Below, in pieces: positions 31,750-42,338 of a stretch of 64,000 nucleotides of DNA. Source of the stretch: Halomonas elongata (GTDB lineage Bacteria; Pseudomonadota; Gammaproteobacteria; Pseudomonadales; Halomonadaceae). The stretch spans positions 1 to 64,000 of the forward strand of contig NZ_JAJQTQ010000009.1 in NCBI RefSeq assembly GCF_029081005.1, given 5' to 3'. The notes under the pieces were generated by a model. That model had not been told where the DNA came from, searched no databases, and saw only the letters and a program-made list of their open reading frames with translations. Every line of letters starts with the position of its first letter. Within the stretch, counting starts at the first letter, position 1. Position numbers and translations under genes: made by a program.

Positions 31750-32391
31750 TCACTCCGGTTGCCGTATGGCCTCGAACTCCAGTCTCACCGCCACCGTATC
31801 GCCCACCAGGCCGTTGTCCACTGCGTAGTCCATGCCCCATTCGCTGCGGTTCAGCTCGGTGGTGGCCGAGATGCCCAGGGTGTGCTTTTCATGCCCGAAG
31901 GGGTAGCGATCCGCCTTGTTGAGCCGCACGTCGAGCGTCACCGGGCGCGTCTCGCCGAGCAGCGTCAGGTTTCCGGTCAGGGTGCCGCGATTGTCCTCGA
32001 CCCCGGTGAGCTCGTCGGCCACGAATTCGATGGTGGGGTAGCGGTCGACGTCCAGGAAATCATCGTCCTTGACGTGCTCGTCGCGGCGTTGGTGGTTGGT
32101 AAAGAGGCTGTCGGCCTGGATGGTGGCCGAGCCCGACGCCAGCGTCTGGCGCTGCTCGTCATAGACGAACTCGCCCTCGGCCTCGAGAAACAGGCCGATC
32201 ACGTCGGCATAGTCGACGTGATCCACGGAAAAACTCACCGAGAAATGTGCTGGATCGATGTGGTAGGTCCGTGGTTCCGCCGCGCCGAGGGTAGGCAGAG
32301 CGAGCATCGTGGGGACCAGCAGCCAGAGCAGGGCCCTCTTGAAGGGAGTGACGATCGTGGCAGGGGACGGTGTTCGTATGGAAATTCGCAT
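31750..32391 (-). CDS. YceI-family periplasmic lipid-binding protein
   Basis: A secreted lipocalin-like protein of 213 residues. An N-terminal signal peptide ends ALPTLGAAE and the mature part begins YHIDPAHFSVSFSVDHV, the YceI opening. Family members bind polyisoprenoid-type amphiphiles. The ATG at 32391 has AGGAGG 6 nt upstream. It is 22 bp downstream of the CDP-alcohol phosphatidyltransferase gene in the same direction, so the two are probably cotranscribed, suggesting a link to lipid metabolism. Confidence 0.92.
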   Translation of the reverse strand: MRISIRTPSPATIVTPFKRALLWLLVPTMLALPTLGAAEPRTYHIDPAHFSVSFSVDHVDYADVIGLFLEAEGEFVYDEQRQTLASGSATIQADSLFTNHQRRDEHVKDDDFLDVDRYPTIEFVADELTGVEDNRGTLTGNLTLLGETRPVTLDVRLNKADRYPFGHEKHTLGISATTELNRSEWGMDYAVDNGLVGDTVAVRLEFEAIRQPE

Positions 32392-32413
32392 GGGAGGCCT
32401 CCTCATGGATGTA

Positions 32414-33145
32414 TCAAGGGCAGCGCTGCCGTTGCCATAGCCAGTGAATGTCGCGCAGAAAAGAGGCACTCAGCAGGGTCAGGGCAAGGGCCAGCAGGAA
32501 CGGGGTCATCAGGGGACTGGCGAAAGGGCTGCAGGCGACGAGCAGGGCGCCGACCTGTATCACGCAGATCGCCTTGCGTCGCCGGCTCTCCGGCAGGGGA
32601 GCGGCCAGCCAGGGCCACAGCCTGCCCGAGACGACAAAGACGTAGCGCATGCCGCCGAGCATCAGTACCCAGGGCCCCGCCTTGTCGTGGGTGATCAAGG
32701 CGATGCACAGCAGCAGGATCAGAAAGGCATCCAGCTCCATGTCGAAGCGTGCACCGAAGTGCGTCAGGGTGTGCGTGCGACGGGCCACCCAGCCGTCCAG
32801 CCCATCGAGCAGGAGGGCGAGCAGGGCGAGAGCGCTCAGCGGCCATAGCGTCTCGGCCTCGGCGCCGGGCCGGAACAGGGGGGCCAGGGCCATGCCGGCC
32901 AGGGCGGTAATGAGGGCGCCGCGCAGCAGCGTGACGCGATTGGCCCAGCCGAAGCCGCGCAGCTCGCGTGTCCAGGCGGCGATGACGAGCGCGCTGAGCG
33001 CGAGATGCGCCACGAGTGCCGCTCCCAGCGCACCGGGTGCCTCGTGGCTCGGCCAGAGCGCCAGGCTGATGCCCACCGCCAGCGCCAGGCCCATGGCGAG
33101 ATCCGGCCAGATTCGCCGCGTGTCGGCTCCCTGTTCGATGCGCAT
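32414..33145 (-). CDS. CDP-alcohol phosphatidyltransferase family membrane protein
   Basis: A 243-residue integral membrane enzyme that transfers a phosphatidyl-type group from a CDP-alcohol to an acceptor alcohol. The complete CDP-AP motif D-x2-DG-x2-AR-x8-G-x3-D-x3-D is present (DGLDGWVARR ... GARFDMELD, about residues 113-138). Five to six further hydrophobic segments follow. The start at 33145 has AAGGAG 9 nt upstream. It is divergent from the MDR-PTPS operon and shares its 240-bp intergenic region, so coregulation is plausible. The acceptor is unknown. Confidence 0.9.
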   Translation of the reverse strand: MRIEQGADTRRIWPDLAMGLALAVGISLALWPSHEAPGALGAALVAHLALSALVIAAWTRELRGFGWANRVTLLRGALITALAGMALAPLFRPGAEAETLWPLSALALLALLLDGLDGWVARRTHTLTHFGARFDMELDAFLILLLCIALITHDKAGPWVLMLGGMRYVFVVSGRLWPWLAAPLPESRRRKAICVIQVGALLVACSPFASPLMTPFLLALALTLLSASFLRDIHWLWQRQRCP

Positions 33146-33286
33146 GCCGCGACTCTCCTTGCACCAGTCTTGTACGTCGCGGCCATCATCTGCGGTGTGT
33201 CTCATCACGCTATGCGGCTCCTGAGCGTTGAACGCCTACCCTGTTGAGTGTGGCAATGAATGAGCCGATGCGCTATTCCTGTGCGT

Positions 33287-33304
33287 AGATCTTGTACATG
33301 ATCT
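33287..33304. promoter_or_regulatory. Operator-like palindrome centred on TGTACA
   Basis: AGATCTTGTACATGATCT is an 18-bp inverted repeat with one mismatched pair, 82 bp upstream of the MDR start, in the region shared with the divergent phosphatidyltransferase gene. A second half site TGTATA follows at 33304-33309 and a TTGTACG stands at 33172. No regulator gene is adjacent. The remainder of 33146-33386 has no gene. Confidence 0.5.
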
Positions 33305-33386
33305 GTATAGTTTTGGTCCAAGCCTGTGAGAGGATGGAAATCAGCAGGCCGAATCGGTCGAATCGAGCAGAGAGGCGAGGGAATCC

Positions 33387-34403
33387 ATGGCAGTGATGCA
33401 GGCCAGGGCATTCTGGCGAGTCCCGGGGCCGCGAGGCGAACTGCGGCAGGAATCACTGGCCGAGCCCGGTGAGGGCGAGGTGCTGGTCGAGTCGCGATTC
33501 AGCGCGATCAGCCGCGGGACGGAATCGCTGGTGTTCCATGGCCGGATACCCGATTCCGAATATCAGCGGATGCGCGCGCCTTTCCAGCAAGGCGAGTTCA
33601 ATGACACGCTCAAGTACGGCTATGCGAACGTGGGACGGGTATTGAAGGGGCCGTCGTCTCTGCTGGGGCGCGATGTGTTCTGCCTCTTTCCTCATCAGGA
33701 TCGCTATGTGGTCCCCGAAGCGGCGGTCCTGCCCTTGCCCGACGGGGTGCCGGCGCGTCGGGGCGTGCTCGGCGCCAACATGGAGACGGCCGTCAATGCG
33801 CTCTGGGATGCGGCGCCGGTCGTCGGTGATCGCATCGGCGTGATCGGTGCCGGGGTGGTGGGGGTCCTGGTTGCTGCCCTGGCGGCCGATATTCCGGGCG
33901 CCGACGTCACCCTGGTGGACATCAACCCGGCGCGTGCGCGGCTGGCCCGGCGGCTCGGGGTGAGGTTCCGCCTGCCGGACGACGCACCGGAAAACTGCGA
34001 CCTGGTCTTTCACACCAGCGGCAGCGCCGCGGGCCTGCGTCAGGCCCTGGTCCTGGCCGGCAATGAGGCGCGGGTCATCGAGATGAGCTGGTACGGCACG
34101 CGCGATGTCGAACTCCCGCTGGGCCAGGCCTTTCACTCCCGGCGGCTCTCGCTGCTGGCCTCCCAGGTCGGCCACCCGCGCGCCGACCGTGCCGCCAGGT
34201 GGGGAGGCCAGCGTCGCCTGGCACTGGCCCTGGGGCTGCTCGCCGATCCGCGCTTCGAGGCGTTGCTGGAACCTTCCTGTGCGTTCGAGGATCTGCCATG
34301 GGTAATGGCGAGCGTCACTTCACCGCAAAGCGAGACCCTCTGCCAGGTCGTGCGCTACGGCACCCAAGATGAAGACGATGGCCATTCCGAAAGGAGCGCT
34401 TGA
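33387..34403 (+). CDS. Zinc-independent MDR oxidoreductase
   Basis: A medium-chain dehydrogenase/reductase of 338 residues with the NAD(P)-binding motif GVIGAGVVGVLVAALA at about residues 151-166. The catalytic-zinc ligands (Cys, GHE) and the structural four-cysteine lobe of alcohol dehydrogenases are absent; the corresponding N-terminal region reads FSAISRGTESLVFHG. It heads a run of overlapping genes: its TGA overlaps the next ATG (TGATG). The substrate is unknown; by context it may reduce or oxidise a pterin- or pyrimidine-type side chain. Confidence 0.85.
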   Translation: MAVMQARAFWRVPGPRGELRQESLAEPGEGEVLVESRFSAISRGTESLVFHGRIPDSEYQRMRAPFQQGEFNDTLKYGYANVGRVLKGPSSLLGRDVFCLFPHQDRYVVPEAAVLPLPDGVPARRGVLGANMETAVNALWDAAPVVGDRIGVIGAGVVGVLVAALAADIPGADVTLVDINPARARLARRLGVRFRLPDDAPENCDLVFHTSGSAAGLRQALVLAGNEARVIEMSWYGTRDVELPLGQAFHSRRLSLLASQVGHPRADRAARWGGQRRLALALGLLADPRFEALLEPSCAFEDLPWVMASVTSPQSETLCQVVRYGTQDEDDGHSERSA

Positions 34404-34813
34404 TGTTCAGCCTGACCGTACGCGATCACATGATGATCGCTCACAGCTTTCATGGCGACGTATTCGGGCCGGCACGAAAGCTTCATGGCGCCACCTATGT
34501 GGTGGATGTCAGCTTTTTTCGACCGACGCTCGACGAGCACGACCTGGTGGTGGATATCGGGCTCGCCAGCGAGACGCTGAGCACCGTGTTGAAGGAGTTC
34601 ACCCTGTCCAATCTGGACGATCATGAGGCGTTTCAAGGGCGCAATACCACGACCGAGTTCATGGCGCAGGCGGTCTTTCAGCGCATGGCATGGGCCATCA
34701 CGGACGGGCGCCTGGGCGAGGGGGCCAAGGGGTTGAGTGCCATGAAGGTGACGCTCCATGAATCGCATATCGCCTGGGCCAGCTACGAGGGATCCCTCGA
34801 GTGGGAGGCGTGA
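34403..34813 (+). CDS. 6-pyruvoyl-tetrahydropterin synthase-like protein (divergent PTPS/QueD family)
   Basis: A 136-residue T-fold protein of the PTPS/QueD family. Retained features are MIAHSF (first zinc His, H14), LHG (H28), LDDHEAF and NTTTEFMA, and KVTLHESHIAWASY with the conserved Glu. The usual catalytic Cys before the HGH motif is Ala24, and the third zinc ligand of HGH is Ala30 (LHGAT). It therefore probably does not catalyse canonical 6-pyruvoyl or 6-carboxy-tetrahydropterin formation; H17 could serve as an alternative ligand. AAGGAG lies 6 nt before the ATG. It is coupled to the MDR gene and overlaps the GT4 gene. Confidence 0.82.
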   Translation: MFSLTVRDHMMIAHSFHGDVFGPARKLHGATYVVDVSFFRPTLDEHDLVVDIGLASETLSTVLKEFTLSNLDDHEAFQGRNTTTEFMAQAVFQRMAWAITDGRLGEGAKGLSAMKVTLHESHIAWASYEGSLEWEA

Positions 34814-35910
34814 GCCTTTCCAGCGCGCCTCGGCTGGCCGTCATCGTGCCCGGGCCGCTGCGCCAGGCGACGGGCGGCTATCGTTATGATGCCCGTATCG
34901 TCGACGGGCTGCGGGCAATCGGCTGGGACGTTGCCGTCGACGAGCTCGAGGGGACCTTTCCCGAGGGTGACCGACCGGCCCGGGAGGCCCTGCAGACGGC
35001 CCTCGATGCGCGGCAGGATGGCGACGAGGTCGTGATCGACGGCCTCGCCCTGGGCAATCTGGGGGACGTGGTGACACCGCATCTCGGGCGACTGCGTATC
35101 ACGGCCCTGGTGCATCATCCGCTCGGCGACGAAGCCGGCCTCGACGAGGCGGCGCGTCGGCGCCTGCATGTGCGCGAGATCGACGTGCTGGAGCGAGTGC
35201 ACCGCCTTGTCGTGACGAGCCGTTTCACCGCGCGTCGCCTCGTCGAGCTGGGCGTCACCCGTACGCCCATCGAGGTGGTGGAGCCCGGTGTGGCGCCGGC
35301 TCCCCTGGCTCGAGGCGCCTGGCCGTCGAGGGCCGCCGAGGCCCCGAGGTTGCTGTGCGTGGCAACGCTGACCCCGCGCAAGGGCCATCGGGTCATGCTG
35401 GAAGCGTTGGCGATGCTGCGCCATCGCCCCTGGCGGCTCGAATGCGTCGGCGATGATCGTCGCGCGCCCGAGGAAAGCCAGGCAATCCGGCGGGACATCA
35501 TGGCGCTCGGCCTGCAGAACAGAGTGAGCGTGGCAGGGTGCGTGAACGAGACGGCGCTGGCGCGATGTTACCACGAGGCAGACCTGGTGCTGGTGCCGTC
35601 GTTCTACGAAGGCTATGGCATGGTCGTGACGGAGGCGCTGGCCCGGGGGCTGCCGCTGGTCTCGACCCTCGGCGGGGCATTGCGCGATACGGTTCCCCCG
35701 GAGGCCGCCTGGCGTGTCGAGCCCGGCCGCAGCGAGGCCTTTGCTGCGGCCATCGCGCAATGGTGGTCGAGCGAGGAGCGAGACGCCAAGCGGCGCGGTG
35801 CGGCCCACGGCCGGCTGGCGCTGGCTGGCTGGGAGCGGACGGTGGAACGCTTTGCCGACAGCCTTGCCGGCTCGCCCGGGGTGCCGGCGGGAGTCGTCGA
35901 TGAGCGATGA
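34801..35910 (+). CDS. GT4-family glycosyltransferase
   Basis: A GT-B glycosyltransferase of 369 residues. The N-terminal strand is RLAVIVPGPLRQATGGY; the C-terminal half has CVATLTPRKGHRVMLEAL and the donor-phosphate-binding E-x7-E motif in SFYEGYGMVVTEALARG. The GTG at 34801 follows GAGGGA by 9 nt; GTG 34810, which overlaps the PTPS stop, is possible. It overlaps its neighbours on both sides. Donor and acceptor cannot be read; GDP-mannose (manC nearby) is one candidate donor. Confidence 0.9.
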   Translation: MGGVSLSSAPRLAVIVPGPLRQATGGYRYDARIVDGLRAIGWDVAVDELEGTFPEGDRPAREALQTALDARQDGDEVVIDGLALGNLGDVVTPHLGRLRITALVHHPLGDEAGLDEAARRRLHVREIDVLERVHRLVVTSRFTARRLVELGVTRTPIEVVEPGVAPAPLARGAWPSRAAEAPRLLCVATLTPRKGHRVMLEALAMLRHRPWRLECVGDDRRAPEESQAIRRDIMALGLQNRVSVAGCVNETALARCYHEADLVLVPSFYEGYGMVVTEALARGLPLVSTLGGALRDTVPPEAAWRVEPGRSEAFAAAIAQWWSSEERDAKRRGAAHGRLALAGWERTVERFADSLAGSPGVPAGVVDER

Positions 35911-36787
35911 TGCCCTCTTTGCCGCGTCATGGCTGGCGCTTCGCGAGCCCGTCGATGCACGTTCCCGTGCCGAGCGACTCAACGGGATGGCGGCGGCCTG
36001 GCTGGCGGAGCGCCGGGCCGCGACTCGGCGGCCGCTGAAGGTGCTCGACCTCGGGGCGGGGAGCGGCAGCAACCTGCGCTATCTCGGCTCCCGCCTGGCG
36101 ATGCCTCAACACTGGACGCTGATCGACCAGGATGCGGCGCTGCTGGATATCGCGATGGCGGAGGCCGCGCCATGCGAGGCGGAGGCACGCTGCGTCGACA
36201 TGGGCCGTTGGCGGCGCCGCCCCGACGAGCTGGCGGCATGGCTCGACGGAACGGATCTGCTGACCGCGTCGGCATTGCTCGACCTGATGTCGCATCCCTG
36301 GGTCACGATGCTGGCGGAGGCCGCGAGCCGGCACCGGGTCGCGGTGCTGTTGGCATTGAGCGTGAACGGGGACTGGCGGCTGGACACCCAAAGCCCCGCC
36401 TCCCGGGAATGGACGCGCGAGGATCAATGGGTTCGCCATGTCTATCGCGACCATCAGGCCACCGACAAGGGCGTGGGGCAGGCACTGGGCGGACAGGCGC
36501 CGGCCGTGATGGCGTCGGCGCTGGAGGCATGCGGCTATCGGCTGTACCTGGCCGACAGCCCCTGGGTACTGCAGGGGCTCGATGATCGGGCTCTCGGCGA
36601 AGCACTGCTCGACGGCTGGCGCTCGGCCGCATGCGAGCAGGCGCCCGAGGCCGCCGATGCCATCCGGGACTGGCATGCGGCGCGGCTGTCGTGCTGGCGT
36701 CGGGGAGAACTGACGATACGGGTCGGGCATCGGGATCTGTTGGCCCTGCCGGGATCCACCATGCCCACCGGGACGGCGCGCCGATGA
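35900..36787 (+). CDS. Class I SAM-dependent methyltransferase
   Basis: A 295-residue Rossmann methyltransferase with motif I VLDLGAGSGSNLRYLGSRL at about residues 48-66, an acidic motif II (LIDQDAALLDIA), and SALLDLMSHPW in the motif IV region. The ATG at 35900 has GCGGGAG upstream and overlaps the GT4 stop by 11 bp; its own stop overlaps the next start (ATGA). It resembles methyltransferases acting on small glycosylated or lipid-linked molecules only in general layout; the substrate is unknown. Confidence 0.87.
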   Translation: MSDDALFAASWLALREPVDARSRAERLNGMAAAWLAERRAATRRPLKVLDLGAGSGSNLRYLGSRLAMPQHWTLIDQDAALLDIAMAEAAPCEAEARCVDMGRWRRRPDELAAWLDGTDLLTASALLDLMSHPWVTMLAEAASRHRVAVLLALSVNGDWRLDTQSPASREWTREDQWVRHVYRDHQATDKGVGQALGGQAPAVMASALEACGYRLYLADSPWVLQGLDDRALGEALLDGWRSAACEQAPEAADAIRDWHAARLSCWRRGELTIRVGHRDLLALPGSTMPTGTARR

Positions 36788-38715
36788 TCCGGGGCCTGTC
36801 ATGGGCGGCGCTCGGGGCGCGCTGGGCCATCGTGCTGGCGGCGGTCGCGCTGGTCTATCACCTCGTCGATGGTGACCGGGTCGGCGTGCGGTTCGATGAT
36901 GTCCAGTTCGTCTGGGTCGCGGCGGGACTGGCGATCTCCGTGCCCCAGGTGGCCATGTCCGCCTGGCGCTGGTGGTACACCTTGCGTTGCCTGGGGCTGC
37001 GCATGGGCGGTTGGCAGGCCCTTCAGGAGTACTATCTGGCGACCTTTCTCAACCAGGTCCTTCCGGGTGGCATGGCAGGCGATGCGACCCGTGCCTGGCG
37101 TCACGCCCGACAGGCGGGGCCGGCCTGGGGCGATCGGCGCCGTCAGCAGGCGCTTCGGGCGGTGTTCATCGAACGGATCTCGGGGCAGGTCGCGCTGGCC
37201 ATGCTGGTGGTGGCGAGTCTGGGGCTGCTGCCGTCATGGCAACCCTGGCGAAGCCAGCTGGCGATCTCTGCCGGTGGCCTCGGCTGGGCCGTCGTCGTGG
37301 TGTGCGTCGTCGTCGGTGGTGGCCTGCTGGTCTGGCGCTCCGGCGCCGGGCTGCCGTGGGAGCGGCCATGGCCCGCCATCGTTGCCGGGGCGTGGCAGGA
37401 TCTTCGGCGCAGCTTGCTGGCTCCCCGGCCATTGAGCCTCCACCTCCTGGTCTCGAGCGCCACGGTACTCAGCTATGGCCTGGTGATGGTCTGCGCCGCG
37501 CGTGCCATCGGGATAGCGACACCGACGAGCACCCTGCTGGCGTTGGCCCCCTTGCTGTTGCTGGCCATGGCAATGCCGCTGAGTCTCGCCGGCTGGGGGT
37601 GGCGGGAAGGCGCCGCGGCCCTGGTCTGGCCGTTGGTCGGCCTGTCCAGCTCCGATGGCGTGGCAGTGTCGCTGGCGTACGGGTTGCTGGTGCTGCTGTC
37701 GAGCCTGCCCGGTGCCCTGGTGCTGCTGGTCGTGGTCATGATGCCGCGGACCGATCGACCTCCAGGTGCCGACTCTCCGGCCTTCTCATCGTTCCCCGCG
37801 AAGCGCGAGGTCGAAGAGGGTGTCGGTTCCCAGCGAAAAGCGGCGGCAGGTTGGGCGTCGCGCGTCGTCCAGGGTATCGATGGGCGGCAGGTTCAGGCCG
37901 GCCCTGCCCGAGCCGATCAACAATGGGGCGACGAGCAGGTGCAGGCGGTCCAGGGCATCCGCCGCCAGAAAGTGCGACAGGGTGGTACTGCCGCCCTCGA
38001 CCAGGACGCGTCGATATCCCGCCTCGCGCAACCGGACGATGACCGCCCGGGCCAGGGCGTCATCGGGAGCGACGGCCAGTTCCTCTCGTTGCAGGTGCGT
38101 CGCACCGCCATCGGAGAGAGCGCCGGGCGCCACCAGATGAAGGGTTCGGGCCTCGCCATCGGTGAACAGACGATGATGCTCGGCGAGTCGCCCCTTGGGG
38201 TCGATCACCACGCGCAGCGGATGGGGGCCCGGGACATGCCGCACGGTCAACGCCGGGTCGTCCGCGGCGACGGTTCCGGCGCCGACCACCACGGCGTCGG
38301 CCAGGGCCCGCAAGCGATGCAGATGCGTGCGCGCTGCGATGCCGTTGATGTAGTGGGAATGCCCGGTCCGAGTCGCGATGCGTCCATCCAGGCTCTGCCC
38401 CAGTTGGCCGATGATGCAGCCCTCCGGGGCACACAGGATGGGCAGCAGGGCATCGAGCAGGTCGGCACTGTCGGCATCGAGTTCGGGGTCGGCGCGCCAG
38501 GTCGCGTCGCCCGTCATCGTCAGGCGGCCCGGGGCGAGATCCACGGCCAGGGGACCCGACGACCAGTCGTGATCGCGCGCGCTCAGCAGGGCCTGCCAGC
38601 AGGCGTCGATACGAGGCGTGGAACAGGGCATGGGGGCTCCTTCCGAGGGGACCGAATCATCATGCGGGGATCGCCCGCCAAGGACAACCGGGCCAGTACG
38701 ACAGCGAGAGGATAG
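36784..38715 (+). CDS. Lysylphosphatidylglycerol synthase TM-domain/flippase-like (AglD-type) protein, with anomalous 3' extension
   Basis: The first ~325 residues form a polytopic membrane domain of the UPF0104/AglD-flippase type: PQVAMSAWRWWYTLRCLGL, then FLNQVLPGGMAGDATRAWR and FIERISGQVALAML are family hallmarks. Homologues end at about this length, but here the frame stays open for another ~318 codons to a TAG at 38713-38715, running antisense through the whole ribD-like gene. The extension is hydrophilic and low in complexity, as expected of an antisense shadow. Either the stop was lost, a sequencing error hides it (a +1 shift before about 37739 would meet a TGA), or a genuine long fusion exists. 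The domain call is firm, the 3' end is not. Confidence 0.65.
   Translation: MIRGLSWAALGARWAIVLAAVALVYHLVDGDRVGVRFDDVQFVWVAAGLAISVPQVAMSAWRWWYTLRCLGLRMGGWQALQEYYLATFLNQVLPGGMAGDATRAWRHARQAGPAWGDRRRQQALRAVFIERISGQVALAMLVVASLGLLPSWQPWRSQLAISAGGLGWAVVVVCVVVGGGLLVWRSGAGLPWERPWPAIVAGAWQDLRRSLLAPRPLSLHLLVSSATVLSYGLVMVCAARAIGIATPTSTLLALAPLLLLAMAMPLSLAGWGWREGAAALVWPLVGLSSSDGVAVSLAYGLLVLLSSLPGALVLLVVVMMPRTDRPPGADSPAFSSFPAKREVEEGVGSQRKAAAGWASRVVQGIDGRQVQAGPARADQQWGDEQVQAVQGIRRQKVRQGGTAALDQDASISRLAQPDDDRPGQGVIGSDGQFLSLQVRRTAIGESAGRHQMKGSGLAIGEQTMMLGESPLGVDHHAQRMGARDMPHGQRRVVRGDGSGADHHGVGQGPQAMQMRARCDAVDVVGMPGPSRDASIQALPQLADDAALRGTQDGQQGIEQVGTVGIEFGVGAPGRVARHRQAARGEIHGQGTRRPVVIARAQQGLPAGVDTRRGTGHGGSFRGDRIIMRGSPAKDNRASTTARG
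37786..38631 (-). CDS. RibD C-terminal-type (dihydrofolate reductase-like) pyrimidine reductase
   Basis: A 281-residue protein with only the reductase half of RibD. The core reads GQLGQSLDGRIATRTGHSHYING, then ADAVVVGAGTVAADDPALTVR and HPLRVVIDPKGRL, and near the end VLVEGGSTTLSHFL and VAPLLIGSGRAGL. In riboflavin synthesis this domain reduces the ribosyl side chain of the pyrimidine intermediate to ribityl. There is no deaminase zinc motif; the ~70-residue N-terminus is unrelated. The start at 38631 leaves an 88-bp gap to the divergent GTP cyclohydrolase II gene. It lies antisense inside the extension of the flippase-like frame. Confidence 0.88.
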   Translation of the reverse strand: MPCSTPRIDACWQALLSARDHDWSSGPLAVDLAPGRLTMTGDATWRADPELDADSADLLDALLPILCAPEGCIIGQLGQSLDGRIATRTGHSHYINGIAARTHLHRLRALADAVVVGAGTVAADDPALTVRHVPGPHPLRVVIDPKGRLAEHHRLFTDGEARTLHLVAPGALSDGGATHLQREELAVAPDDALARAVIVRLREAGYRRVLVEGGSTTLSHFLAADALDRLHLLVAPLLIGSGRAGLNLPPIDTLDDARRPTCRRFSLGTDTLFDLALRGER

Positions 38716-38719
38716 CGTC

Positions 38720-39808
38720 ATGTATCAGCTGGAAAGAGCCATCTTCGATCTACGGCGAGGCGTGCCCGTGCTGCTGACCGCCGCCGAGGGTGACCGTCTG
38801 GTGCGCCCCGTCGAGGGCCATCATGAGGGTGAGCTGTCGACCCTGCTCGAGCGCTGTGGCGAGGGACCGAGGCTGGTGGTCACGCGCCATCGCCTGGAAG
38901 CATCGGGGCTCGAGGCCCCGAGCGATACGGTATCGCTGGTACTGACCGAGTCCGGCGAGCGCCTGGATCCTGGGCGTGATGAGCTGCCAGCCCATGACGC
39001 AGCGGTACCCGCGACATCGGCGGAATGCGTCGCCCTGGACATGATGCGCCGGGGCCTGCTGGTGCCGGCGGCCGTGGTCGCCGCTCCTCGCCACGGGCGC
39101 CGTGATGAGATCGCCCGGTTGGTGGCATCCGGCACGCTGCTGACGCTCGATGCCACCGAAGCGCAGCGGACGCTGGGCCGGCTGAGTCATGAGGTGGTAC
39201 GGGTCAGCGACGCGTCGGTGCCTCTGGCCGATGCCGAGGTCACCCGGTTCATCCTGTTCCGCGAGGCGGATGGCATGCGTGAGCACCTGGCGATCGTCAT
39301 CGGCCAACCCGACGACTGGCCCGAGGCGGTGCCGATCCGCCTGCACTCGGCGTGCCTGACCGGGGACCTGTTCGCCAGCCTGCTCTGTGATTGCGGCGAG
39401 CAGCTGCGCAATGCGGTGACCGGCATTCGCGAGCTGGGCGGTGGGGTGTTGCTGTACCTGGACCAGGAGGGACGGGGCATCGGACTGGCCAACAAGCTGC
39501 GTGCCATCGGGTTGCAGGACACCGGACTGGATACCCTGGATGCGGATGGCTGCCTGGGCTTCGGTCATGACGAACGTCGTTACGGGGCGGCCGTGGCCAT
39601 GCTTCAGGACCTGGGGATCGGGCGTGTCCAGTTGCTGACCAACAACCCGCGCAAGATGGCGGCGTTGATGGAGGCCGGCATCGAGGTGACGAAGCGCCAG
39701 GGCATCTATGGGCGGGTCACCCCGCAGAATCGGGCCTATCTCGCCGCCAAGGCCGGTCGTGCCGGACATTGGCTCGAACATATCCTCGATCAGGACGATT
39801 CGGCGTGA
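38720..39808 (+). CDS. GTP cyclohydrolase II (RibA-type) with extended N-terminus
   Basis: The C-terminal ~190 residues are a full GTP cyclohydrolase II: zinc site SACLTGDLFASLLCDCG (C-x10-C-x-C, about residues 211-224), YLDQEGRGIGLANKLRAIGLQ and LLTNNPRKM. This enzyme opens GTP to the diaminopyrimidine precursor of riboflavin, releasing formate and pyrophosphate. The first ~180 residues (AIFDLRRGVPVLLTAAEGDRL) faintly resemble the opening of DHBP synthase but lack its acidic motif, so the domain is probably degenerate. GAGAGGA precedes the ATG by 7 nt. It likely serves the cluster rather than housekeeping riboflavin synthesis, but that is inference. Confidence 0.9.
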   Translation: MYQLERAIFDLRRGVPVLLTAAEGDRLVRPVEGHHEGELSTLLERCGEGPRLVVTRHRLEASGLEAPSDTVSLVLTESGERLDPGRDELPAHDAAVPATSAECVALDMMRRGLLVPAAVVAAPRHGRRDEIARLVASGTLLTLDATEAQRTLGRLSHEVVRVSDASVPLADAEVTRFILFREADGMREHLAIVIGQPDDWPEAVPIRLHSACLTGDLFASLLCDCGEQLRNAVTGIRELGGGVLLYLDQEGRGIGLANKLRAIGLQDTGLDTLDADGCLGFGHDERRYGAAVAMLQDLGIGRVQLLTNNPRKMAALMEAGIEVTKRQGIYGRVTPQNRAYLAAKAGRAGHWLEHILDQDDSA

Positions 39809-40590
39809 AAGCCCGTGATATCGAGCCGTGCCGTGTCATCGAGGACCTCCGCCAGGGCTCGGCCGAAGTGAGACACCAGCTGTTGCCCGAGCGCGTCGGT
39901 GGCCAGGGCGGCATTGCCCACCACGCCACCGGGATGGAGGTCCTGTGCCAGCCAGGCGAAGGAGGCGTCGCCTTCGGGCCCGAGACGCGCCTGGCGGGCG
40001 GCCAATCGTTCGCCCACGGAAGGCGGGTGACCGAGGGCGTCTCGTCGCACCCGATCGGGGTGGAGGTGCAGCATCATCGCCGTTTCCAGTGCCCCGCCGT
40101 GCAACCCGTGGATCAGCTCCTCCCGGGGCAGACAGCCATCCGGCGGGGCGAGCGTCATGTAGGGGGCCTTGACCACCAGCATGCCGTGACGTCGACGCAG
40201 CGTCAGGGCGGCCTGCTGCATGATGGCCTGGTTGCCGCCATGGCTGTTGATCAGCATCAGGCGCCGAATGCCGCTCCGTGCGAGGCTGTCGCCCACCGCC
40301 TCGAGGGTGGCCTGGGCCACCGGCGCGGGCAGCGACAGCGTGCCCGGGAAGTCGCGGTGCTCCTCGCTGGCGCCCACGCTCAGGGGCGGCAGGACGAACA
40401 CCGAACGGTCGGGCGCGACGTGACGCAGCGTCTCGTCGAGCAGCCCCTCGCCGATATCCAGGTCCGTCGACAGCGGCAGGTGAGCGCCGTGCTGTTCGAT
40501 GGCACCGAGTACCATCACGGCAACACTGTCGGTTCTCGTCAGGGAGGGCACATCGGGGGCATGGAGCGATGTCCAGTGATGGATGGCCAT
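39790..40590 (-). CDS. Creatininase-family amidohydrolase
   Basis: A 266-residue metal-dependent amidohydrolase. Metal ligands are visible in GAIEQHGAHLPLSTD, INSHGGN and HGGALETAMM, the three signatures of the creatininase family. The family includes ArfB, the deformylase that acts on the formamidopyrimidine made from GTP in archaeal flavin/F420 synthesis, and MftE of mycofactocin synthesis. Adjacent GTP cyclohydrolase II and RibD-type reductase make an ArfB-like role attractive. It converges with the cyclohydrolase gene with a 19-bp overlap and diverges from the sulfatase-like gene. Confidence 0.9.
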   Translation of the reverse strand: MAIHHWTSLHAPDVPSLTRTDSVAVMVLGAIEQHGAHLPLSTDLDIGEGLLDETLRHVAPDRSVFVLPPLSVGASEEHRDFPGTLSLPAPVAQATLEAVGDSLARSGIRRLMLINSHGGNQAIMQQAALTLRRRHGMLVVKAPYMTLAPPDGCLPREELIHGLHGGALETAMMLHLHPDRVRRDALGHPPSVGERLAARQARLGPEGDASFAWLAQDLHPGGVVGNAALATDALGQQLVSHFGRALAEVLDDTARLDITGFHAESS

Positions 40591-40670
40591 GGCGGTCGCA
40601 ACTCCCTTGGCGGTGGTCGTGAATGCCGACTTTACGCGCCGGGAGTGGGCCGTGGCGAGGTGCATCAGGC

Positions 40671-42338
40671 ATGAAATGGCTGGGTGTCGTGGTGATGCTG
40701 TGGCTGCTGGCGCGTCTTGGCGGCCTGCTGATGCTGGTGGTCATGGCCGGCGGGGATGGCGTTGGGCCGGGCGTCGAGTGGTTGCTGCGCGTACCCCTGG
40801 ATGTGGTCCTGCTGGCGGTGCTGCTGCTCTGGTTGCCGCCGCGGCGAGTCGTGCTGGTCAGCATTGCGGCCATGCTGATGCTGGCGGTGACCCTGAGTCT
40901 TGCCGAAGGAGCCACATTCGCCATCTTCGGACGTGAGCTGAATGTCTGGCTGGACGCCTCCCTGTTGTCGGCGGGCTATCAGCTGTTGACCTCCAACCTG
41001 GGCAATCTGCCGGCACTGTTGGTCGTGGCCGTGATGGTGTCGGGGTTGGCGGGGCTCGTCTGGGTCGTGTCACGGGGGCTGGGTGGGGCTTGTGCCGCGA
41101 GTGCGCGGACTCCCCGCTTGCGCCGACTCTGGCTCTCCGTCGGCATGATGGGCCTGGCGGGTGTCTCGCTGGGCGCGGGCTACCTGCGCGACGCTCCTCG
41201 CCCGGGAATCGATTTTCCCCTGGCATCCGTCGTGGTCGAGCAGGCCGAGCAACTGCCTCGAACCCTCGCGGCGCGACGGCGCTTCGAGCAGCGCCAGCGC
41301 CGTCAGCAGCCGGAGGTAACGCCCCTGCCGGGGTTGCAGGGGCGAGACGTGGTGCTGATCTTCATCGAGTCCTACGGCATGTCGTTGCTCGAGGAGGACG
41401 CGGCCTCGTTGCGGGATACCCTGAAACAGGCATCGTACTCGCTGGCCGACCAGGGCATCGCCAGCGTTTCCGGACGCTTGCGTTCGCCCGTGCGGGGCGG
41501 GCAGTCCTGGCTGGCCCATGCCAGCGTGCTCAGCGGGCTGACCATCGATGATGGCCTGGACTACCGGCTGTTGTTGAAGAGTCGGCGAGGCTCCATGGTG
41601 CAGGATTTCGCCGCGACGGGGCACCATACCCTGGCGCTGATGCCGGCGATTACCCAGGCCTGGCCGGAAGGCCGGGCCTATGGTTTCGATACTCTGGTCG
41701 ATGCCGGGGGCATGGGCTATGCGGGGCCTTCGCTGCACTGGGTCACCATGCCCGATCAGTACAGTCTGAAGACGCTGGCGACACGCTGGCTCGACAGTCA
41801 GGATGCGCCCGTCTTCGCCCAGGTGGCGCTGATCAGTAGCCATGCTCCCTGGACGCCGATCCTGCCCGTGCGCGACTGGGCGGCCATCGGCGATGGCAGT
41901 GGCTTTCGGCGCTGGGCGGACGCGGGGCCCGAGCCCGAGGTCCTGTGGCGGGATATGGACGAGGTGCGGCGTCATTACGCCGAAGCGGTCCGTTATTCCC
42001 TCCGGGTGACGCTGGCGTGGGTCGAACGCTACCTCGACGATGACGGCCTGGTCATGGTGATGGGCGACCATCCCGCGGCGCCGGTGGTGACGGGCCCTGG
42101 CGCCAGCCCGGACGTCCCCGTGCACCTGTTCAGCCGTGATGCCGAGCTTGTCGCTCCCTTTCTGGAGCACGGGTTTCGCGACGGCCTGATCCCTGCCGCG
42201 ACGCCCGCCTCCTCGACCATGGCCTGCTGGCGGCACTGGCTTCAGCGGTACTTCGCCGATGGTGAGGATGAAACAGAGAGCGCCGTTATACCTCGTCATG
42301 GCGCCCTGCCGGCATGCCAGTGGCAGCCAGGTGAATGA
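40671..42338 (+). CDS. LtaS/sulfatase-family membrane protein (phosphoglycerol-transferase-like)
   Basis: A 555-residue protein with about four N-terminal membrane segments followed by a periplasmic alkaline-phosphatase-fold domain. VVLIFIESYGMSLLE (about residue 225) gives the metal-binding Glu; RGGQSWLAHASVLSGL corresponds to the nucleophile loop, and VMGDHPAAPVV supplies the Asp-His pair. This is the layout of LtaS, MdoB and EptA-type phospho-group transferases, which move phosphoglycerol or phosphoethanolamine to envelope sugars. The nucleophile appears to be Ser rather than Thr. The start at 40671 follows the divergent creatininase gene by 80 bp. Confidence 0.82.
   Translation: MKWLGVVVMLWLLARLGGLLMLVVMAGGDGVGPGVEWLLRVPLDVVLLAVLLLWLPPRRVVLVSIAAMLMLAVTLSLAEGATFAIFGRELNVWLDASLLSAGYQLLTSNLGNLPALLVVAVMVSGLAGLVWVVSRGLGGACAASARTPRLRRLWLSVGMMGLAGVSLGAGYLRDAPRPGIDFPLASVVVEQAEQLPRTLAARRRFEQRQRRQQPEVTPLPGLQGRDVVLIFIESYGMSLLEEDAASLRDTLKQASYSLADQGIASVSGRLRSPVRGGQSWLAHASVLSGLTIDDGLDYRLLLKSRRGSMVQDFAATGHHTLALMPAITQAWPEGRAYGFDTLVDAGGMGYAGPSLHWVTMPDQYSLKTLATRWLDSQDAPVFAQVALISSHAPWTPILPVRDWAAIGDGSGFRRWADAGPEPEVLWRDMDEVRRHYAEAVRYSLRVTLAWVERYLDDDGLVMVMGDHPAAPVVTGPGASPDVPVHLFSRDAELVAPFLEHGFRDGLIPAATPASSTMACWRHWLQRYFADGEDETESAVIPRHGALPACQWQPGE

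Follow-up and report, generated by a model that had tools for sequence, protein, structure and literature searches.

A conserved ten-gene cluster of Halomonas elongata combines GTP-heterocycle enzymes with envelope functions and keeps a reading frame open opposite its antisense reductase gene

Toxoflavin-type clusters for GTP-derived compounds contain a GTP cyclohydrolase II (GCHII), a RibD-like protein and a methyltransferase, and we know of none that includes a 6-pyruvoyltetrahydropterin synthase (PTPS)-like protein, a family 4 glycosyltransferase (GT4), a flippase or an envelope transferase. In Streptomyces coelicolor, the PTPS-like protein SCO6650, whose structure (PDB 3d7j) was deposited as that of an uncharacterized protein, reportedly contains no zinc and shows no PTPS activity, and a paralogous GTP cyclohydrolase, SCO6655, with Met at the position of E. 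coli Tyr105, is said to stop at the formyl product. We describe here a window of 64,000 nucleotides from Halomonas elongata (contig NZ_JAJQTQ010000009.1, positions 1 to 64,000), in which ten genes, A to J, at 32414-42338 share the three toxoflavin-type functions and bring them together with a PTPS-like protein close to SCO6650, a GT4 and envelope enzymes. The ten genes form one conserved system, which probably constitutes a dedicated accessory branch leading from GTP via GCHII to a glycosylated, methylated heterocycle that is delivered to the envelope. No description, product or pathway for this gene set was found among the papers listed by searches of the open-access literature, subscription papers being outside the scope; an earlier note on this DNA, made from sequence alone, had likewise known of no characterised system, a statement that has to be narrowed for single parts, as the S. 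coelicolor relative of C has the structure 3d7j and SCO6655 has been studied.

A Pfam scan and inspection of the open reading frames (ORFs) delineate ten genes, where the earlier note had counted nine, and one occasional neighbour of A:

A, 32414..33145, minus strand: CDP-alcohol phosphatidyltransferase (PF01066, E 2.5e-17)
B, 33387..34403, plus strand: dehydrogenase of the medium-chain dehydrogenase/reductase (MDR) type (Pfam ADH_zinc_N, below cut-off)
C, 34403..34813, plus strand: PTPS-like T-fold protein of the SCO6650/3d7j group (PF01242, 4.7e-21)
D, 34801..35910, plus strand: GT4 glycosyltransferase (PF00534, 4.5e-27)
E, 35900..36787, plus strand: class I S-adenosylmethionine-dependent methyltransferase (Pfam methyltransferase match below cut-off; predicted fold)
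F, 36784..38715, plus strand: LPG_synthase_TM flippase-like protein (PF03706, 1.7e-37)
G, 37786..38631, minus strand: RibD_C-type pyrimidine reductase (PF01872, 2.5e-37; no deaminase domain)
H, 38720..39808, plus strand: GTP cyclohydrolase II, PRK08815-like (PF00925, 8.8e-52)
I, 39790..40590, minus strand: creatininase-family hydrolase, candidate formamidase (PF02633, 2.3e-62)
J, 40671..42338, plus strand: membrane-anchored alkaline-phosphatase-superfamily transferase, LtaS-like fold (predicted structure; Pfam sulfatase match below cut-off)
31750..32469, minus strand: YceI-like protein, occasional neighbour of A (PF04264, 9.9e-42)

Five genes, B, C, D, E and G, were taken as the core. A search with the dehydrogenase B gave at least 580 relatives in named genomes. 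Across the best-scoring 80 of these loci, the number that contain a given gene falls from 78 for C, 75 for D, 74 for E and 69 for G to 54 for A, 49 for H, 40 for F, 39 for I and 17 for J, and all five core genes stand together in 67. A survey for PTPS proteins in 397 genomes of the window's phylum, for which at least 90% completeness was asked, places the subfamily of C in 32 genomes (about 8%, its own included), well separated from other matches (E <= 1.4e-52 versus 9e-15 for the next best). With three of these loci already in the set, the 29 that were inspected have B adjacent in every case, D in 28, E in 27 and G in 26, the full core being present in 23. The earlier note had proposed that the genes act as a system and had named their independent scattering in other genomes as the observation that would speak against it; the neighbourhood survey gave the opposite outcome, the genes staying together, and the combination of heterocycle and envelope enzymes that the note pointed out recurs across phyla. 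Some genomes were reached twice (L015/L026, L016/L027, L018/L101, L065/L150 and L038/L141), and one locus titled as an archaeal metagenome-assembled genome (MAG; L028) is counted with the Halomonadaceae, whose genes its own resemble.

Closer to the window, C is present in 13 of 58 genomes including the window's own, and 8 of 12 loci from relatives keep the order and orientation of A-I unchanged, two of the eight also with J; the remaining four deviate by a missing F, a position at the end of a contig, the absence of both H and I, or reduction to a remnant. One remnant (L025, G019:C3) consists of the GT4, the creatininase and a PTPS fragment only. At the other end of the range, the core set spans Proteobacteria, Acidobacteria and Actinobacteria. 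In the phylum to which a Streptomyces locus belongs, 8 of 296 genomes have the PTPS subfamily (E <= 1.1e-46, with one further partial match at 1e-32), and in that of an acidobacterial locus 7 of 199 do (E <= 1.1e-55), the central genome being included in both counts. The former phylum, surveyed from locus L064, also holds a second group of PTPS relatives, at E of about 1e-25 to 1e-16, between the subfamily and the weaker matches. Fourteen of the 25 plasmid records with a PTPS-subfamily match were inspected, and versions of the cluster lie on plasmids of Agrobacterium, Methylosinus, Microbacterium, Thiodictyon, Rhizobium, two Rhodobacterales, Streptomyces fungicidicus, two Haloarcula and Natronorubrum, one inspected record being unannotated; no RibD-like gene was seen in the haloarchaeal stretches inspected. 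On the two Rhodobacterales plasmids (L171, L174) a ribokinase/PfkB-type kinase gene lies near the core, and the GT4 is absent or displaced.

All 21 pairwise comparisons of gene-to-gene distances among A, B, C, D, E, G and H correlate (r 0.52-0.79, at most 52 hand-picked loci), with none of 200 permutations as high. This bears on the possibility that a heterocycle pathway and an envelope-lipid module are two unrelated units that happen to be neighbours, which the many core clusters without A, F and J found beside them would favour; as A and J recur with the core in Proteobacteria, Acidobacteria and Streptomyces, and A correlates in distance with B, C, D, E, G and H (r 0.52-0.73, 15-23 loci), we regard such a coincidence as quite improbable.

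Within the cluster, the plus-strand genes overlap from B to F (B/C by TGATG, C/D by 13 nt, D/E by 11 nt and E/F by ATGA), A, G and I lie on the minus strand, and the H/I overlap is convergent. The earlier note read the gene overlaps as showing joint action, which holds for B-F and fails for A, G, I and J, which the overlaps alone do not tie in; the frame of F described below, which that note did not mention, extends the B-F link to H. Family residues are retained in A (CDP-alcohol motif D114, A121, R122, G131, D135 and D139, 82/82 sequences), in B (G154, G156 and G159, 126/126), whose nearest named relative is BchC (NCBIfam 1.8e-14, below cut-off), and in D (K194 and E270, 118/118), and the AlphaFold 2 (AF2) model of E (pLDDT 92.9) matches methyltransferases in Foldseek (best E 2.9e-10). 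The YceI-like gene beside A accompanies 14 of the 80 dehydrogenase-anchored loci. A light-responsive LitR/CarH operator between A and B was considered for the sequence TTGTACA-N5-TGTATA at ~33290-33310, which is also found in loci L014 and L015, and was rejected because the published LitR spacing is N12 (PMC9758184) and, of 126 upstream stretches, 14 contain TTGTACA and 15 contain TGTATA.

H has the GCHII domain and its three zinc-binding Cys, which are kept in 58/58 loci, and it matches NCBIfam PRK08815 at 3.2e-101, below cut-off. It carries an extra N-terminal domain (38720-39190) without a Pfam match, for which two Streptomyces GCHII versions, of 226 and 228 residues, are too short. In E. 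coli GCHII, Tyr105 is linked to complete deformylation. At this position Ile is found in the window's H and at three loci of two close relatives (L014, and L015 with L026 from a single genome), Met in two Streptomyces and Tyr in 52 loci, with one locus unreadable. G is a RibD_C-type reductase in which the residues aligned to E. coli RibD D200, R207 and E299, which we take to be substrate-site residues, are present in 108/108 sequences. I likewise retains the residues of its superfamily (E32, H34, D43, H117 and E169, 58/58), and scores 21 bits against the ArfB model, whose cut-off is 180. As a creatininase-family formamidase acting on the formyl intermediate of this chemistry has been published (PMC9478397), I may, by analogy, be a formamidase for the formyl product of H.

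C belongs to the SCO6650-type subfamily by sequence relationship and by an FGPA...HGAT motif; 3d7j is its only match among PDB sequences at E <= 0.001 (E 1.2e-47 over 131 residues). A24, A30 and H28-G-A-T31 are invariant in 88/88 sequences, as are D51, D72, E85 and E120. Assuming that A24 and A30 occupy the positions of the canonical PTPS Cys and of the third zinc His, Ala stands at both throughout, and C as a canonical PTPS/QueD or a queuosine enzyme is rejected; the earlier note's PTPS-like protein is in this respect not a canonical one, and the annotated plasmid records inspected label the C-type protein as a queuosine enzyme. The same residues weigh on a biopterin-like route to a tetrahydropterin glycoside, in which a FolE product would pass through PTPS, a reductase and a glycosyltransferase. 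Pterin glycosides are known natural products, and a PTPS fold, a dehydrogenase, a RibD_C reductase and a GT4 do occur together here. With Ala at the presumed catalytic Cys and third His and a GTP cyclohydrolase of type II rather than I, this route is improbable.

The GCHII and RibD_C genes of the cluster come in addition to those of riboflavin synthesis. In the window's genome (G000), contig C115 carries ribA, and contig C104 carries both ribD and a gene of the RibBA type, so that the cluster copies are the third GCHII and a further RibD_C, and among 32 of the 58 relatives a cluster-class GCHII was found in 11 of 13 genomes with C and in none of 19 without it (p 6e-7). Since the cluster copies stand beside canonical riboflavin genes, a deletion causing only riboflavin auxotrophy is unlikely here, and plain riboflavin supply is rejected as their role in this genome. 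That the cluster boosts riboflavin supply or flavin secretion is highly improbable: GCHII and RibD_C do belong to riboflavin chemistry, a Salinisphaera cluster GCHII is the sole one found in its genome, and a Sinorhizobium meliloti RibBA has been proposed to make flavins for secretion (PMC9478397), but by Pfam the ten genes lack the 3,4-dihydroxy-2-butanone 4-phosphate (DHBP) synthase, the lumazine synthase and the riboflavin synthase that a riboflavin operon would have, the canonical genes lie elsewhere, and B, C, D and E would be left without use.

On the envelope side, the AF2 model of J (pLDDT 76.7) comprises an N-terminal membrane part and a domain, whose best Foldseek matches are LtaP/LtaS (4uop, 4uor), followed by a Vibrio alkaline-phosphatase-superfamily protein, GacH and EptC, at E 1e-8 to 1e-6 and with low TM-scores (0.35 by query, 0.46 by target). 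E233, S279, H391, D466 and H467 are conserved in an 18-sequence alignment, S279 being in our assumed residue mapping the likely nucleophile. J thus combines an LtaS/OpgB-type fold, within the limits of the low TM-scores, with metal and nucleophile residues as presumed from that mapping. Across 114 loci the recurring neighbours are an MdoH-like glucan synthase (47), an FkbM methyltransferase (46) and two loosely defined groups, one of ATP-binding cassette (ABC) proteins with a ChvA/NdvA-type exporter (16) and one of cytochrome b561-like proteins (13). In the 69 loci outside Halomonadaceae, A co-occurs with J (p 8e-7) and with F (p 3e-7), and A/J alone are found in 26, MdoH alone in 25, both in 3 and neither in 15, an exclusion (p 1.4e-5) whose statistic ignores shared ancestry; one of the 15 (L167) does carry an MdoH that the grouping missed. 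Outside Halomonadaceae, then, two envelope modules alternate, one of A, F and J and one of MdoH. The envelope decoration module of the earlier note is present in the window and is not a fixed part of the system, MdoH replacing it in 25 of those 69 loci.

The window's genome has a single MdoH gene, on contig C93, whereas elsewhere MdoH lies within the cluster, as a second copy in five genomes (G145, G149, G221, G268, G381) and as the only one in four (G069, G103, G296, G418). In the genus (81 genomes), MdoH scores above cut-off in 24 of 25 genomes with the cluster and in 21 of 56 without it (p 3.7e-7). An MdoH-type gene adjoins the core in L073, L109, L153, L156, L158-L160, L163, L164, L168 and others. 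The core could on this basis make a substituent or primer of osmoregulated periplasmic glucans, with J, which we liken to OpgB, and MdoH serving glucan assembly. MdoH-like genes adjoin the core in Alpha-, Beta- and Gammaproteobacteria, within 200 nt in 20 of 28 cases outside Halomonadaceae; the three such proteins scanned each score above cut-off with two or more NCBIfam models of MdoH, and a ChvA/NdvA-type exporter, above cut-off in the one case scanned, is adjacent in some loci. The genus-level association and the second copies point the same way, but the association is inflated by shared ancestry and by physical linkage, MdoH and the cluster often being close together in Halomonas; moreover, the Actinobacterial and haloarchaeal stretches inspected contain no MdoH, and that of the window's genome is on a different contig from the cluster. 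We consider this role for the core rather unlikely. The pathway itself is tied to envelope glycan assembly, and the unit that it makes may be joined to a lipid or to a periplasmic glucan, or may remain free.

A second property of the locus concerns the frame of F. The flippase-like part of F covers residues ~1-310, and the frame meets no stop after this membrane domain but continues for a ~330-residue tail, codon for codon antisense to G and across all of it, to a stop at 38715, just short of the H start at 38720. F lies next to an antisense G in 56 loci, 39 of which have this read-through, always in one register; two of these come from Streptomyces, in which I separates G from H and an open frame is uninformative given the high G+C content. 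H is downstream in 44 of the remaining 54 (42 Halomonadaceae, one Thauera, one gammaproteobacterial MAG), and read-through is found in 37 of these, all Halomonadaceae, against 0 of the 10 in which no H was found downstream, six of them Halomonadaceae (p 8e-7). Of the other seven of the 44, six keep the in-register frame open over G even though F stops first, several of them plausible by chance, and in one the frame is broken. An overlap of 14 nt between the F stop and the nearest H start is seen in 27 of the 39 loci, and the offsets of the other Halomonadaceae range from -8 to +164.

An open frame of this length could be a by-product of codon usage in G. In a recount on 28 loci, chosen from the 44 so that their G genes share under 85% nucleotide identity, G is free of TTA, CTA and TCA in 27, where 5.2 are expected from each locus's own codon usage; for the control genes of these loci the counts are A 4/27, B 2/28, D 7/28, E 5/28, H 1/28 and I 7/27, with 3.6-5.2 expected. 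For eight loci without H the count is 0 against 1.06 expected, which is uninformative alone. Codon expectation, control genes and loci without H together reject a chance ORF as the cause of the long frame. At fourfold sites, G differs by 0.367 against 0.395-0.438 in six other genes (16 hand-chosen locus pairs, Leu and Ser omitted) and by 0.307 against 0.327-0.403 in seven genes (24 pairs, all codons); G is thus nearly as fast as the other genes, so that the tail sequence is at most weakly constrained. A conserved domain in the tail is not favoured either, G being the slowest only slightly and the tail having no Pfam match. Selection maintains the open frame, the sequence of which is hardly conserved. 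We therefore think it likely, from sequence comparison, that the F frame serves as a translational bridge in Halomonadaceae, along which ribosomes would pass the region opposite G to reach H and so avoid polarity. Ten loci with E, antisense G and H in which no F was found, the frame being broken in seven and open in three (two of these from one genome), count against the generality of such a bridge.

We infer the individual reactions, their order and the product from the gene content as follows. H would open the ring of GTP and, lacking the deformylation-linked Tyr as in the window, may halt at the formyl intermediate, from which I would remove the formyl group; G would reduce the resulting ribosylaminopyrimidine, and C, with its non-canonical PTPS fold, and B could complete a heterocyclic alcohol or a sugar-like unit, to be glycosylated by D and methylated by E. 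In this genome, A, F and J would transport the unit, either as such or attached to a phospholipid, through the membrane, with phosphotransfer to an envelope acceptor, and in many other genomes an MdoH-type glucan synthase would perform the envelope step; in Halomonadaceae, the F frame bridging antisense G would allow translation to run from B-F into H. The product may be flavin- or pterin-like, as in the simplest model of the earlier note, and may be bound to a lipid. Several points weigh against the accessory branch that we favour. Keeping the best-scoring loci over-weights near relatives, some genomes are shared by the dehydrogenase- and PTPS-anchored sets, and Fisher tests, unless stated otherwise, treat related genomes as independent. 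No H was found in 31 and no I in 41 of the 80 dehydrogenase-anchored loci, some on short contigs; of 109 loci, 6 showed no D, 8 no E and 14 no G; and two Streptomyces plasmids (L106, L169) carry the PTPS-like gene alone, near cupin and metallo-beta-lactamase (MBL)-fold genes. A creatininase gene accompanies all 5 loci with a non-Tyr GCHII (four genomes) and 40 of 52 with Tyr, an association that is not significant (p 0.57), and the rule that a non-Tyr GCHII requires a creatininase is rejected on that ground. In Salinisphaera (L044), finally, the genome gave no GCHII match besides that of the cluster, which may also feed riboflavin.

A bolder version, which we put forward tentatively, is that the cluster defines a new class of envelope glycoconjugates. 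The compound would be a pyrimidine or pterin glycoside derived from GTP, which is either phosphotransferred to periplasmic or lipid-linked glycans or assembled on them, and its mobile pathway would be shared by Proteobacteria, Acidobacteria, Actinobacteria and haloarchaea. In Halomonadaceae, translation of the operon would pass straight across an antisense gene on an ORF whose only role is that of a ribosome bridge. About 8% of the sampled genomes in the window's phylum carry the pathway; identifying its product would add a branch to riboflavin and pterin chemistry, and perhaps a new envelope decoration. If translated, the bridge would represent a new type of operon architecture that accommodates an antisense gene, and would offer a strong evolutionary test of frames encoded in antisense.

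Set against the known systems, C is close to SCO6650, with which it shares an FGPAQ..HGAT motif, and Streptomyces loci carry the same set, L064 with all ten genes and L102 with nine, J being absent. The formamidases BrbF and ArfB belong to the creatininase superfamily, as does I, and their reaction would fit between H and G (PMC9478397); they differ from I, whose match to the ArfB model is far below cut-off. The phosphoglycerol transferases LtaS and GacH share the fold of J, which departs from them in its low TM-scores and in a Ser at the presumed nucleophile position. For the arrangement of F, G and H, antisense overlapping genes have been reported (PMC9927249), and the nearest parallel is the noncontiguous operon menE-menC-MW1733-ytkD of Staphylococcus aureus, which has an antisense gene inside a presumed operon (PMC7154746). 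In S. aureus, as that report describes it, the stretch opposite the antisense gene is an internal untranslated region, whereas in the cluster described here it is an ORF that stays open to the next start.

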